A DNA stretch of 64,000 nucleotides from contig NZ_BSOB01000017.1 in NCBI RefSeq assembly GCF_030160295.1, positions 214,049 to 278,048 of the forward strand, read 5' to 3'. Origin of the DNA: Dyella acidisoli. Lineage in GTDB: Bacteria > Pseudomonadota > Gammaproteobacteria > Xanthomonadales > Rhodanobacteraceae. The notes beneath the pieces are model-generated. The model was given only the letters and a program-made list of their open reading frames with translations, was not told the origin of the DNA and did not search any database. Shown one piece after another: positions 20,265 to 31,815 of this stretch. Made by a program: the position numbers and the translations under genes. Within the stretch, counting starts at the first letter, position 1. Each line of letters starts with the position of its first letter.

Positions 20265-21899
20265 CTAGACGGCCGGCTCGATCCGCACGGGGGGCGTCAA
20301 TACCAATCTGAAGCAGCTTCCACCGCCTGCTACGCGCACATACTCCAGAGCCGCCTGATTCGCTTCTGCCATCTGTCGCGCGAGATAAAGTCCAAGACCG
20401 GTGCCGTATTCGTGCGTGGTGTAGAACGGCTCGAAGATTTGCGCTGCTACTTTCGGCGCAATGCCGGGGCCGCGATCGATTACTTCCAGAATCGGTACGC
20501 CATGTTCGCCGTGTCGTACCACTACCAGCACGCGCGCGGGTTCGCCAGGCATGCGGCCGTAGCGCAATGCGTTCTGCACCAGATTCCACACCACTTGATG
20601 CAGCTGCTGCGAGTCGGCTACCGCGATGACCGGCTGTGCGCTGTTGTCGATCACACGCAATGAGTCGTTGCCGATGTCGTTGCCCTGCTTGTATTCATCC
20701 ACGAAGCCGTGCGCCCAGTCGCCCAGGCTCAGCGTTTCAGGGCGTGAGCGTTCGCGTCGCGACAACTGCAAGATGTTTTCGATGATGTCGTTGAGGCGGC
20801 TGCAGTGATTGTTGATGATCTCGACCATGCGCAGGTCGGTGGCGCTCATCTCGTGCGATTCGGCCAATAGCTGCGCGGAGTAGCGGATGGCTGCAAGCGG
20901 ATTGCGGATCTCGTGCGCGATCGAAGCGGAAAGCCGGCCCAGCGAGCCGAGTGTGAGTTCTTCGGCGCGACGCGACACCAGCGAGGTGTCGTCCAGGAAG
21001 ATCAGCACGAGCGAATCATCGTTCGGCGCGAGTCGGCTGAAGCGCGGCACCACTTCTGGCATACCGTCGGCGAGCTGAGTGGCGGTTTCGTCCAGCTTGC
21101 CCGAGGTGATCCAGTGATACAGACGGCGCGACAACTCCGGTGCTACACGGCCCAGATCGCGCTGGTCGGAGGAAGGATTGCCCAACAGCATCCACGCCGA
21201 TTCGTTGATCTGATGGATGCGGTTGGCGTCGTCCACCAGCATCACGCCTGTTTTCATGCGGCGGATGATCAGCTCGTTGACCTGAGCCAGGTTGACCAAA
21301 TCGATGCTGCGCTGTTCGGCCAGTGCCTCGCTGGCGCGCAGCTGACGACCCAGCACGTTACATAAGACGACGATCGCGAAGTAGGCCATGCCGAACAGGC
21401 CCGACTCCAGGAAGTCGCGGTCGTCGACCGAGGGCGTGTGGGGCAGGGAGAACACGATGCGTCCGAGCACCCCAAGGGTGGCAAGCGCGGCAAGGAACAG
21501 CGCCAGCCGCAATGGAAGCAGCAACGCGCCCGCGGCAAGGTTCACGGCCAGCATCATCGCGATGCCGATGCGCGCCTCGTTCATCGCGGCGATCGCCAGC
21601 ACCGCCGCAACGATGTCCACCAGCAGGGTGCCCAGGATGCCCAGCCAGCCCAGTGACTTGGTGAGGTGGGTGATCGATACCACCGCCAGGGCGAACAGCA
21701 GGTAGCCAGCGGCCACCAGGCGCGCCAGGTCACTGTTGTCCAGATGGGGCCAGCCCATGCCGGTGGGGGTGAAGGCCAGCCCGACGTACACCAGCGCCTG
21801 GGCTAGCCTGAAATAATTCAGAAACAGCAGCTCGTGGCGGGTGGTCGTGCTGTTGGGCGAATCAACGATCGCGCGGCTGGACACGGTCTGCACACTCAC
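20265..21899 (-). CDS. pilS: PilS, membrane sensor histidine kinase of type IV pili
   Basis: A 544-aa inner-membrane kinase. About six hydrophobic segments fill the first 190 residues (ALVYVGLAFTPTGMG, GYLLFALAVVSITHL, LLVDIVAAVLAIAAM, LALFLAALATLGVLG, MAYFAIVVLCNVLG), followed by a PAS-like region (GVMLVDDANRIHQINESAWMLLG), the H-box AHEIRNPLAAIRYS with His329, the N-box NLVQNALRYG, and G-boxes DRGPGIAP and GTGLGLYLA. A GTG start at 21899 is proposed; longer readings run into the intergenic repeat at 21918-21957. The ribosome site is weak, so the start is uncertain. Its partner pilR is displaced to 229-1671. Confidence 0.92.
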   Translation of the reverse strand: MSVQTVSSRAIVDSPNSTTTRHELLFLNYFRLAQALVYVGLAFTPTGMGWPHLDNSDLARLVAAGYLLFALAVVSITHLTKSLGWLGILGTLLVDIVAAVLAIAAMNEARIGIAMMLAVNLAAGALLLPLRLALFLAALATLGVLGRIVFSLPHTPSVDDRDFLESGLFGMAYFAIVVLCNVLGRQLRASEALAEQRSIDLVNLAQVNELIIRRMKTGVMLVDDANRIHQINESAWMLLGNPSSDQRDLGRVAPELSRRLYHWITSGKLDETATQLADGMPEVVPRFSRLAPNDDSLVLIFLDDTSLVSRRAEELTLGSLGRLSASIAHEIRNPLAAIRYSAQLLAESHEMSATDLRMVEIINNHCSRLNDIIENILQLSRRERSRPETLSLGDWAHGFVDEYKQGNDIGNDSLRVIDNSAQPVIAVADSQQLHQVVWNLVQNALRYGRMPGEPARVLVVVRHGEHGVPILEVIDRGPGIAPKVAAQIFEPFYTTHEYGTGLGLYLARQMAEANQAALEYVRVAGGGSCFRLVLTPPVRIEPAV

Positions 21900-22136
21900 G
21901 AGGAGAAGTGGTAACTGCCTCCCCTCTCTCCCTGGGGAGAGGGTCCGGGTGAGGGGACAATCTTTCGGTAGAACAACATCGAAGCGAACTCCGATGCACC
22001 ACTTTCGCAAGATTGCCCCTTAACCTCAATCTTCTCCTCAGAGGGGAGCGGAAGTAAATCTGTTGGCCCGCCCCTTTCCATCCCTACCCGCTTCCGCGAA
22101 AATACCGGGCCGTATTGCGCGGTTTTCCCCATGTGA
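21900..22136. repeat. Non-coding stretch with CCCTCTCCC-type intergenic repeat
   Basis: The segment upstream of pilS holds a CCTCTCTCCC..GGGAGAGGG hairpin followed by GTCCGGGTGAGGGGA (about 21918-21957), a common gammaproteobacterial intergenic repeat, then a looser partial copy near 22028-22050. No gene is supported here; open frames in it are translations of the repeat. Confidence 0.6.
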
Positions 22137-22425
22137 GGGATGCTCTGATCGATTTTTCGTAAACGTCATGATGTCCAGAAGGCCCGCAGGGTGTGTTGCG
22201 CGGCGCCGGGAAGACAGGTTGTCTTGCCAAGCTGCGCGGCGCAGCCTGCGGGCCTTCTGGACATCACCCCATCGGTTTAATCTCGATATGTTGGGCCGTT
22301 GCTGTCCGTCCGCATGCCTTCGGCCCATCGTCTCGACAGACAGGCAGTCTGCCTTCACCGATGGTCCTGTGGCCTGCAGACGGACAGCAACGGTGACGTC
22401 TACGAAAAATCGATCAGAGCATCCC
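22137..22425. repeat. Nested two-armed inverted-repeat element upstream of sucC
   Basis: Outer arms 22137-22168 and 22394-22425 are complementary at 31 of 32 positions. They enclose two hairpins of equal length, 98 nt each: 22169-22266 (perfect 22-bp basal stem 22169-22190 / 22245-22266) and 22296-22393 (perfect 15-bp basal stem 22296-22310 / 22379-22393, continuing imperfectly). The hairpins abut the outer stem with no gap, and 29 nt separate them, so a three-way junction can form. Their tips share an AGACAGG..GTCT.GCC pattern. It ends 119 bp before the sucC start. Whether it acts as DNA, as leader RNA or as a mobile element is unknown. Confidence 0.85.
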
Positions 22426-22544
22426 CCGCATGGCCACGGCGCACTGCACACGCCGGTAGTGCGTAACACCGCCGTCCGTTCTCCCAAGCCTGTGCTGTGG
22501 CTACCGCGCAGGCTCGATCCTTCCCCATTCACTCGAGGTATCGA

Positions 22545-23711
22545 ATGAATTTCCACGAGTACCAGGCCAAAGAGCTGTTCGCGCAGTACGGCATTGCCGT
22601 GCCGCCGGGCAAAGTCGCCAATTCCCCCGACGCCGCCGTCGACGCCGCCAAGCACCTGGGCGGTTCGCAATGGATGGTCAAGGCTCAGATCCACGCAGGC
22701 GGCCGCGGCAAGGCCGGCGGCGTCAAGTTCTGCAAAAGCCTGGATGACGTGCATGCCGCCGCCAAGGGCATGCTGGGCAAGAGCATGGAAACCTATCAGT
22801 CCGCCGGCCGTGCGCTGCCGGTGAACCTGGTGCTGGTGACCGATGCCACCAACATCGCCAAGGAACTGTACCTGTCGATCCTGGTCGACCGCGACAGCAA
22901 GGCCGTGACCTTCATCGCTTCCAAGCACGGTGGCGTGGATATCGAGCAGGTGGCCAAGGAAACGCCGGATGACATCCACACCATCGTGGTGGACTTCATC
23001 GAAGGCCTGCAGCCGTACCAGTGCCGTCAGCTCGGCTTTGCGATGGATCTGAATCCCAAGCAGGTCACGCAGCTCACCAAGATCATGCTGGGCTTGTACA
23101 AGCTGTTCAACGAGAAGGACCTGTCGCTGGTCGAGCTCAACCCGCTCGCGATTCTCGAAGACGGCAACCTCGCCGCCCTCGACGGCAAGGTCAATTCCGA
23201 CGACAACGCCGAGTTCCGTCACGCGGACCTGGCCAAGATGCGCGACCTCACGCAGGAAGATGCGGCCGAAGCGGCCGCCGTGCAGCACAACCTCAACTAC
23301 GTGACCATGGACGGCAACATCGGCTGCATGGTCAACGGCGCAGGCTTGGCCATGGCCACCATGGACGTGATCAAGCTGGCGGGCGGCGAGCCGGCCAACT
23401 TCCTCGACGTCGGCGGCGGCGCCACCAAGGAGCGCGTCACCGAGGCGTTCAAGCTGATTCTCTCCTCCGACAAGGTGAAGGCCATCCTGGTCAACATTTT
23501 CGGCGGCATCGTTCGCTGCGACCTGATCGCCGACGGCATCATCGCCGCGGTGAAGGAAGTGGGTCTGAAGATTCCGGTGGTGGTGCGTCTGCAGGGCACC
23601 AACGTGGAGAAGGGCCGCGAACTGCTGGCCAACTCCGGTCTGGCCATTACGTCGGCCGACGATCTCAACGACGCGGCGAAGAAAGCCGTGGCCGCCGCGA
23701 AGTCGAAGTGA
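22545..23711 (+). CDS. sucC: Succinyl-CoA synthetase beta subunit (ADP-forming)
   Basis: A 388-aa TCA-cycle subunit, the same length as the E. coli protein. It begins with the family signature [17 protein letters not shown], has the ATP-grasp nucleotide region ([16 protein letters not shown]) and the C-terminal ligase part ([30 protein letters not shown]). The ATG at 22545 follows a GAGGT site; the upstream extension to 22497 is not conserved-looking. It is followed by sucD after 13 bp. Confidence 0.97.
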
Positions 23712-29229: not shown

Positions 29230-31815
29230 ATGCGAATGGACAAACTTACCTCGCGTTTCCAGCAGGCGCTTGCGGATGCGCAATCGCTTGCAGTGGGGCG
29301 CGATCACAACATGCTCGAGCCGGTGCACATCATGGCTGCACTGCTCGACCAACAAGGCGGCTCGACTGCGCCGTTGCTGACCCAGGCACACGTCAACGTG
29401 CCGGCATTCCGTCAGCGCGTGTTTGAGCTGCTCGACCGACTGCCAAAAGTGAGTGGACAGGAAGGCAACATCCACGCCGGCAACGAACTGACGCGCCTGC
29501 TCAACCTCACCGACAAGCTTGCACAGCAGCGCGGCGACCAGTTCATCGCCAGCGAGCTGTTCGTGCTGGCCGCCCTGGAAGACAAGGGCGAACTGGGTGC
29601 GGCATTGAAAGCAGCCGGCGCCACCAAGACCAACCTGGAAGCTGCCATCGACAAGCTGCGCGGCGGCGAAAAAGTGCAGAGCGAAAACGCCGAAGACCAG
29701 CGCCAGGCACTGGAAAAATATTGCATTGACCTCACTGCGCGCGCCGAGAGCGGCAAGCTCGATCCGGTGATCGGCCGCGACGAGGAAATTCGCCGCGTGA
29801 TCCAGGTGCTGCAACGTCGTACCAAGAACAATCCCGTGCTGATCGGCGAACCTGGTGTGGGCAAGACAGCCATCGTCGAAGGCCTCGCGCAACGCATCAT
29901 CAAGAACGAAGTGCCCGAGGGCCTGCGCGACAAGCGCGTGCTCGTGCTCGACATGGGCGCGCTGATTGCCGGTGCGAAATTCCGTGGCGAGTTCGAAGAG
30001 CGCCTCAAGGCTGTACTCAACGACCTGGCCAAGAACGAAGGCCAGATCATCCTGTTCATCGACGAATTGCACACGATGGTCGGTGCCGGCAAAGCCGAGG
30101 GCGCGATGGACGCCGGCAATATGCTTAAACCTGCGCTGGCGCGCGGCGAGCTGCATTGCGTCGGCGCCACCACGCTGGACGAATACCGCAAGTACATCGA
30201 GAAAGATGCTGCATTGGAACGCCGCTTTCAGAAGGTGTACGTGGGCGAGCCGAGCGTGGAGGACACCATCGCCATCCTGCGCGGCTTGAAAGAACGCTAC
30301 GCCATGCATCACGGCGTGGAGATCACCGATCCCGCCATTGTTGCTGCGGCCACGCTGTCGAACCGTTACATCACGGATCGCCAACTGCCGGACAAGGCCA
30401 TCGACCTGATCGATGAGGCTGCCTCGCGCATCCGCATGGAAATCGACTCCAAGCCGGAAGAACTCGACCGCCTGGAGCGCCGCCTGATTCAGCTCAAGAT
30501 CCAGCGCGAAATGCTGAAGAAGGAAACCGACGAGGCTTCGAAGAAGCGCCTTGCGGATCTCGATAACGACATTGCCAAGCTCGAACGCGAATTCTCCGAT
30601 CTCAACGAAGTGTGGAAGTCGGAAAAGGCCGCGTTGCAAGGCGCGACCAAGGTCAAAGAGCAGATCGAGCAAGCGCGCGTGGAACTGGAAGCAGCGCAGC
30701 GCAGGCAGGATTACGCCAAGATGAGCGAGATCCAGTACGGCCGCATGCCTGAACTGGAAAAGCAACTCGCTGCGGCGCAAGCTGCCGAGAAGCAGGATTT
30801 CAAGCTGGTACAGGATCGTGTCACGGAAGAAGAAGTGGCCGAAGTGGTGTCGCGCTGGACGGGTATTCCCGTCAGCAAGATGCTTGAAGGCGAGCGCGAC
30901 AAGTTGCTGCACATGGAAGAATCGCTGCACAAGCGCGTGGTTGGCCAGGACGAAGCGGTGCGTGCGGTCTCCGACGCCATCCGTCGTGCACGCGCAGGCC
31001 TGTCCGATCCCAATCGCCCTTACGGTTCGTTCCTGTTCCTTGGCCCCACCGGCGTGGGCAAGACGGAACTCTGCAAGGCACTGGCCGAATTCCTGTTCGA
31101 TACGCAGGAAGCGATGATACGCATCGACATGAGTGAATTCATGGAGAAGCACTCCGTCGCGCGTCTGATCGGTGCACCTCCCGGTTATGTCGGTTACGAG
31201 GAAGGTGGCTATCTCACCGAGGCGGTGCGTCGTCGGCCGTACAGCGTGATCTTGCTGGACGAAGTGGAGAAAGCGCACCCGGACGTCTTCAACGTGCTGC
31301 TGCAGGTGCTCGACGATGGACGCCTCACCGACGGCCAAGGCCGCACGGTGGATTTCCGCAACACCGTGATTGTGATGACTTCCAACCTTGGCTCGCAGCT
31401 CATCCAGGAAAACGCGGGTGACACCGAGGCCGATTACCTGCAGATGAAAGCCGCTGTGCTGGGTGTGGTGCAGGCGCACTTCCGTCCGGAATTCATCAAC
31501 CGTCTGGACGAGCTGGTGGTGTTCCGCCCGCTGGAGAAAAAGCAGATTCGCAAGATTGCGCTGATCCAGCTCACGTATCTGGAAAAGCGCTTGGCCGAAC
31601 GTCAGCTCAAGCTGGAGATCGACGAGAAGGCGCTGGATTTGCTCGGCAACGTTGGTTTCGATCCGGTATACGGCGCGAGACCGCTCAAGCGTGCGATCCA
31701 ACAACAGTTGGAGAACCCGTTGGCGAGGGAAATCCTGGAAGGACGTTTTGTATCGGGTGACACGATTGTGGTTGAAGTGGAAGGCGGGCATCTGGCGTTC
31801 CACAAGAACGCCTGA
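29230..31815 (+). CDS. clpB: ClpB disaggregase
   Basis: An 861-aa AAA+ chaperone that works with DnaK to dissolve aggregates; the length matches E. coli ClpB. The N-terminal domain begins [21 protein letters not shown]. The first AAA module has Walker A GEPGVGKT and Walker B ILFIDELH, followed by the coiled-coil middle domain (about residues 400-530, rich in KL/KA/EE heptads). The second AAA module has [19 protein letters not shown] and [12 protein letters not shown]. It is preceded by a sigma-32-like promoter. Confidence 0.97.

Follow-up and report, generated by a model that had tools for sequence, protein, structure and literature searches.

A dispersed two-armed hairpin repeat upstream of sucC in Dyella acidisoli, a probable IS5-type non-autonomous element with a covarying fold

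Architecture of the Copy Between the pilS-Like Gene and sucC

The window (the whole stretch of 64,000 nucleotides of Dyella acidisoli that was analysed) carries a minus-strand pilS-like frame and, divergent from it, sucC, which starts with an ATG at 22545; both gene names are taken from translations alone. The gap between them houses a large nested inverted repeat located ~120 bp upstream of sucC (Table 1). The original prediction had placed it in this divergent gap and described a 32-bp outer stem with one mismatch and two adjoining 98-nt hairpins, the basal stems of which are perfect over 22 and 15 bp, all of which was borne out by re-inspection of the letters. The pairing of the outer stem continues into the flanking CCATG..CATGG, and repeat detection therefore gives 40 nt at 93%. 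A potential three-way junction had also been proposed. Both hairpins do stand on the outer stem, but the 29-nt linker, which had gone unmentioned, forms a small third hairpin, and the junction is therefore four-way. The two hairpins are not of equal length throughout the family, hairpin 2 being 96 nt long in copy L012.

Table 1. Features of the element and its host site in the window.
Feature	Position	Strand	Remarks
Left terminal inverted repeat/outer stem	22137..22168	+	5'-GGGATGCTCTGATCGATTTTTCGTAAACGTCA; 18 of the 23 first bases equal the IS end of L271
Hairpin 1 (98 nt)	22169..22266	+	family G-U pairs favour the plus strand
Hairpin-1 core, common to other Lysobacterales elements	22187..22248	+	68.8 bits with covariance model R1 (31 rows, the window copy itself among them)
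Linker with small third hairpin	22267..22295	+	~CCCTTCGGG (shortened) in a number of copies
Hairpin 2 (98 nt)	22296..22393	-	G-U pairs favour the minus strand in the window's type
Right terminal inverted repeat/outer stem	22394..22425	+	
Host palindrome CCATG...CATGG, element in its loop	22129..22433	.	empty form e.g. CCATGTCGAGGCATGG (L059, L060)

Folded as DNA, the element reaches -126.9 kcal/mol, compared with -52.7 (sd 3.2) for 100 shuffles, none of which equals it (z = -23); with RNA parameters, the z-score is -20.9. A separate, imperfect inverted repeat adjoins the pilS-like gene at 21919-22052 (GGTGAGGGGACAATCTT.. / ..CAAGATTGCCCCTTAACC). Sequences like it are found in the same gap of many congeners, and match themselves on both strands in several.

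Copies in the Genome and in the Family

Twenty-nine distinct places of the host's own 5.3-Mb genome match a 309-base query, in 56 matched pieces, many of which are the other arm of the same element. The complete copies are 72-80% identical to that of the window and display the same fold, with near-perfect stems of their own. Across the Rhodanobacteraceae, matches occur in at least 66 of 197 genomes (the own one included) and at least 16 of 26 genera, these being lower bounds since three candidates per genome were scored. The similarity search of the unit across relatives, proposed along with the prediction, reveals a dispersed repeat. The tip pattern of hairpin 2 was found in at least 110 stretches of named genomes and, among the matches listed, in Dyella, Rhodanobacter, Mizugakiibacter, and MAGs labelled Lysobacterales or Lysobacteraceae. 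The element is short, devoid of a transposase, and present in multiple dispersed copies, as is expected of a MITE.

By crude codon-based gene calls, none of 74 copies lies inside a gene. Thirty-five are located between tandem genes running in the direction of the element, 16 between tandem genes running against it, 18 in divergent and five in convergent gaps; a stop or a start is often just a few bases away. Such a placement would fit an RNA hairpin being tolerated where neighbouring genes are transcribed together. No match to the element was found in the collections of phages and plasmids searched, and a phage or plasmid origin was rejected; the viral contigs gave no exact match to one hairpin-1 tip pattern. 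No description of this family was found in the open-licence literature, judged by titles and the beginnings of abstracts.

A small repeat of ~48 nt (TCGCTCCTCAAAGCC...GGGTACATCCATGTACCC...CCCCGCGTGC) sits within hairpin 2 of copies L015, L103, and L104. A similar one adjoins sucC, upstream of it, in genome G172 (L065).

Conservation and Covariation of the Fold

Alignment A1 comprises 71 two-armed copies drawn from the loci fetched early, a part of all the matches listed. It leaves out the partial, one-armed, or enlarged copies L015, L016, L034, L039, L064, L085, L086, L092, L095-L101, L103, and L104, as well as the duplicate L069. A further alignment, A3, has 31 rows and leaves out L329 and L307 (wrong match) and six loci without a match. 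RNAalifold predicts 105 pairs on A1, 74 of them with double changes. With the outermost pair left aside, 97.4% of the cells of the remaining 104 pairs are paired (85.9 in shuffled alignments), 73 pairs are doubly changed (38.9 in shuffles), and the covariation score is 0.348 (0.135 in shuffles); none of 500 shuffles reaches any of these measures. When the structure is slid along the alignment, pairing falls to 32-40%. Double-change cells number 824, compared with 240 in shuffles and 54-96 in the slid control. Furthermore, any two copies differ on average on both sides at 17.2 pairs and on one side at 8.6, with 5.0 double differences expected if the sides were independent. The slid control and this double-to-single ratio weigh more, because related copies beat shuffles even in the absence of structure. 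The stem-preserving changes that a covariation search had been suggested to look for are present. The prediction had also held that complementarity is maintained against drift; this stands across the copies of the mobile family, but not across sucC orthologues.

Empty Sites and Flanks

Among 15 congeneric genomes, the gap between pilS and sucC is without a match to the element in 14. The fifteenth, G017, harbors in the same gap a one-armed version of the same family, a nearly perfect palindrome of ~70 pairs (L064, 1960-2250). Twelve of the empty gaps are in readable orientation: ten carry a short CATG-n-CATG and an eleventh a variant; the motif has been lost in G115, the nearest relative by sucC. 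The flanks of 16 other copies of the own genome were sought in G115, G066, and G080. Both flanks were found together for 12 of them, giving 28 site-by-relative comparisons, all without such an element, and in 25 of these the flanks lie within ~25 nt of being joined. Empty sites in relatives, as expected for an IS5 MITE, are thereby documented. The others are L002/L135, in which a short remnant of both element ends is kept at the relative's site (G080), and L003/L149 and L014/L136, in which more than 100 nt of other sequence separates the flanks, with a 43-nt hairpin-1-like match in the latter. Most of the displayed empty sites exhibit no clean duplication.

The dinucleotide TA flanks 34 of 71 copies on the left, 39 on the right, and 24 on both sides, against a background of 1.8% per dinucleotide; it is missing on one or both sides in 47. 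A target duplication of 4 bp was rejected: of the 24 copies with TA on both sides, no more than 15 are flanked by equal 4-mers, and a 2-bp TA fits better.

In-place maintenance was considered for the sites shared between genomes (L004/L025 and L005/L024). However, L004 is empty in three closer relatives and L002/L036 are inverted at the same site, so that re-insertion is an equally good reading. At the L002/L036/L135 site, the element is found in opposite orientations in two genera and as an ends-only remnant in G080, pointing to re-use or repeated loss.

Terminal Repeats and a Candidate IS5 Partner

The terminal inverted repeats match the ends of insertion sequences of relatives, which are candidate autonomous partners. 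That of G017 (L108/L263) is bounded by GGGATGCTCTGAACAATTAG.. and GGGATGCTCTGATTTATTCCTCG and contains a transposase frame of the IS5_4 type (E 2.7e-92 against NF033581, profile positions 1-259 of 285), which may itself be broken. A related IS in G080, of which the protein is 64% identical, has ends GGGATGCTCTGAACAAATC and GGGACACTCTGATTTATTCCTCG. The MITE consensus matches the right end of the G017 IS at 21 of 23 positions and the end seen in L271, a broken sister copy of this IS, at 22 of 23, the best end match; left ends match at 16 of 23. A search of the own genome revealed no IS with such ends; its three transposase matches are 34-37% identical and lack them. G017, a 3.5-Mb genome, also contains 24 DUF4096 transposase matches of 91-96 bits (L379, L383, L385-L406), apparently a recent burst.

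Related Elements with Other Ends in the Lysobacterales

With a type-A query, tips of hairpin 1 were detected in genomes of a second family of the order, which we take, from the make-up of the order, to be the Xanthomonadaceae/Lysobacteraceae. The loci fetched there are two-armed, ~270 nt long, and bear the ends GGGCGTGTCA, GGGCCTGTTA, and GAGCCTGTT. A query of this other-ended kind matched 80 of 299 genomes of the order and 33 of 85 genera, many E-values being marginal, with two candidates per genome scored. IS5_3-type transposase frames lie between such ends in L380/L384 (GGGCGTGTTAACACTAT) and L381 (GAGCCTGTTCACGATCTT). The L380 frames score 114 and 106 bits against a cut-off of 110; the L381 frame (131 residues, 92 bits) is below it, and the L381 end has 18 consecutive bases in common with element L357 of the own genome.

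At least 39 hairpin-1 cores are present in the own genome (150 of 7195 candidates scored). Thirty of them were fetched and 28 assigned: 17 belong to the window's type, and the other 11, of which six are one-armed by their fold, bear GAGCC-like ends. Homology between end types is seen for hairpin 1 only; hairpin 2 is common to them in layout, not convincingly in sequence. One reading is an exchange of ends between element types; another is that a hairpin-1 module may have been captured by different MITEs. A class-wide search covered 369 genomes but was insensitive, as only 14 candidates were scored in each and none came from the four members of the order that were displayed; it returned the own genome and three others at 35-39 bits, the latter being taken here as chance matches. 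Within the window, a weak match to the hairpin-1 model (23.9 bits) at 30268-30318 on the minus strand is probably chance as well.

Strand Polarity of the G-U Pairs

In columns where a Watson-Crick pair is the most frequent, the counts of G-U and A-C on the plus strand are 89:17 in hairpin 1, 17:47 in hairpin 2, and 30:44 in the outer stem. With all columns counted, they become 256:17, 54:48, and 30:44, the loss of polarity in hairpin 2 being due to one fixed wobble column. When both strands of the 71 copies are folded, the counts are 312:70 for hairpin 1 and 61:168 for hairpin 2. The polarity is clearest in one-armed elements: six copies of the own genome that have hairpin 1 alone give 79:13, and eight copies with hairpin 2 alone (six own, two from relatives) give 53:7, with the same direction in all eight. 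In the elements with other ends, of which 26 distinct ones were counted, hairpin 1 is polarised as well (133:26); hairpin 2 is not minus-polarised there, with 41:25 (RNA parameters) or 20:20 (DNA parameters).

We read this polarity as probable selection on one folded strand, and a strand-biased mutation arising from the element's own transcription would also explain it. Transcription of neighbouring genes was rejected as the cause, the directions of the hairpin polarities being identical in all four gene contexts.

A Mobile Element with a Selected Fold and Its Alternatives

The ends, the TA flanks of a third of the copies, and the existence of IS5 insertion sequences with matching ends lead to the identification of the element as a non-autonomous IS5-type MITE; the non-autonomous element was among the guesses of the original prediction, and the dispersed copies and empty sites agree with it. 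The element is a mobile repeat rather than a switch specific to sucC. The best joint explanation, in which we have good confidence, is that of an IS5-family MITE moved by means of IS5_4-type ends, with a folded strand kept by selection. An IS5_4-type transposase would act on the 23-30 bp ends and move the body, a putative mobilisation. Less certainly, copies would have to keep a folded single strand in order to spread or to be tolerated between co-directional genes, and this putative strand is more likely RNA read from the neighbouring genes than ssDNA. Were it required, both sides of a stem would as a consequence change together in active lineages. The two-armed elements resemble a pair of one-armed units set face to face, with each being sense on one strand; either orientation of insertion would then present a sense hairpin first, a step for which the window's own type, unlike the related ones, provides support.

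The strongest alternative, although unlikely, keeps the same MITE and attributes the pairing to replication template-switching between the arms, without selection on the fold. This mechanism has been described for RNA stems (PMC8794818). A one-step mutation accounts without selection for double changes between copies only 1-6% apart: below 6% divergence, they already represent ~30% of the changed pairs (14 pairs of copies, with the outermost pair, possibly a trace of the target, counted in). In L098, moreover, an arm has been copied over its partner, making the tip of hairpin 2 fully palindromic. In contrast, columns 33-280 retain a G.A non-pair in 62 of 71 copies, and the tips are not inverted in 71 of 71 copies for hairpin 2 and 70 of 71 for hairpin 1, the exception (L102) being a deletion copy. 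Columns 216-217, 219-220, 228-229, and 236-240 of the hairpin-2 tip are unpaired, yet 92-100% conserved, although the unpaired columns of this hairpin are on average no more conserved than the paired ones (0.813 and 0.806). Nor is the strand polarity of the G-U pairs predicted by template-switching alone. Selection on a folded single strand, probably RNA, is inferred to act, and template-switching during replication may help; both are retained, with the larger share attributed to selection.

A DNA cruciform or an ssDNA hairpin bound by a host or transposition protein is less probable still. The fold is as improbable by chance with DNA parameters as with RNA ones, and some of the conserved unpaired tip letters resemble a recognition site. 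However, both strands of a duplex fold in a cruciform, so that the polarity requires a single-stranded form, and the ends and flanks are DDE/IS5-like. The bases of the hairpins were also compared with integron attC boxes, and this candidate was discarded, the order of the boxes being opposite.

A structured RNA leader regulating sucCD, which the position upstream of sucC had suggested, is highly improbable: the element is not conserved before orthologous genes (one match in 15 congeners, one-armed), occurs between many other gene pairs, and belongs to no Rfam family at its threshold. Seven loci gave no Rfam match at or above the gathering threshold; in the window at 21800-22700, all nine matches up to E = 1 (eight microRNA families and one bacterial sRNA) are below it.

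Beyond the IS5-type MITE with its selected strand, a broader proposal can be put forward tentatively, as a possibility that we consider less probable than its contrary. A selfish hairpin unit may extend across the Lysobacterales, with the folded sense strand as the selected product, either one-armed or as a facing pair, its hairpin-1 core kept in at least two families and mobilised with the ends of at least two IS5 subgroups (IS5_4 and IS5_3). If true, it would be an RNA-like parasite, as if able to change its transposase.

Comparison with Known Systems

Bacterial MITEs such as Correia/NEMIS, ERIC, RUP, and YPAL are described as A+T-rich elements of ~100-200 bp in the review PMC2229807. Like them, the present element is small and gene-free, possesses terminal repeats and TA ends, and is mostly intergenic. 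It would also resemble them in the long stem-loops of the transcript. Unlike the MITEs described there, it is 265-290 nt long, has G+C-rich arms, two of them large and carried by an outer stem, and displays a strong measured covariation. With IS5-family insertion sequences, it has the ends in common, those of the window's type matching NCBIfam IS5_4 (NF033581) at 21-22 of 23 positions and those of a related type matching IS5_3 (NF033580) over 18 consecutive bases; in contrast to them, it is without a transposase and its interior is unrelated.

With dozens of diverged copies in each genome, strong covariation, and sites that are empty in relatives, this natural family allows two explanations of compensatory evolution, template-switching during replication and selection on a folded strand, to be separated with data. 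It also raises the question of a MITE interior common to two bacterial families while the transposase ends differ.

REPs are short hairpins next to a tetranucleotide and are associated with RAYT transposases. The element resembles the REP/BIME of Stenotrophomonas and Pseudomonas in consisting of dispersed palindromes in related bacteria, and differs from them in its size and its IS5-type ends.
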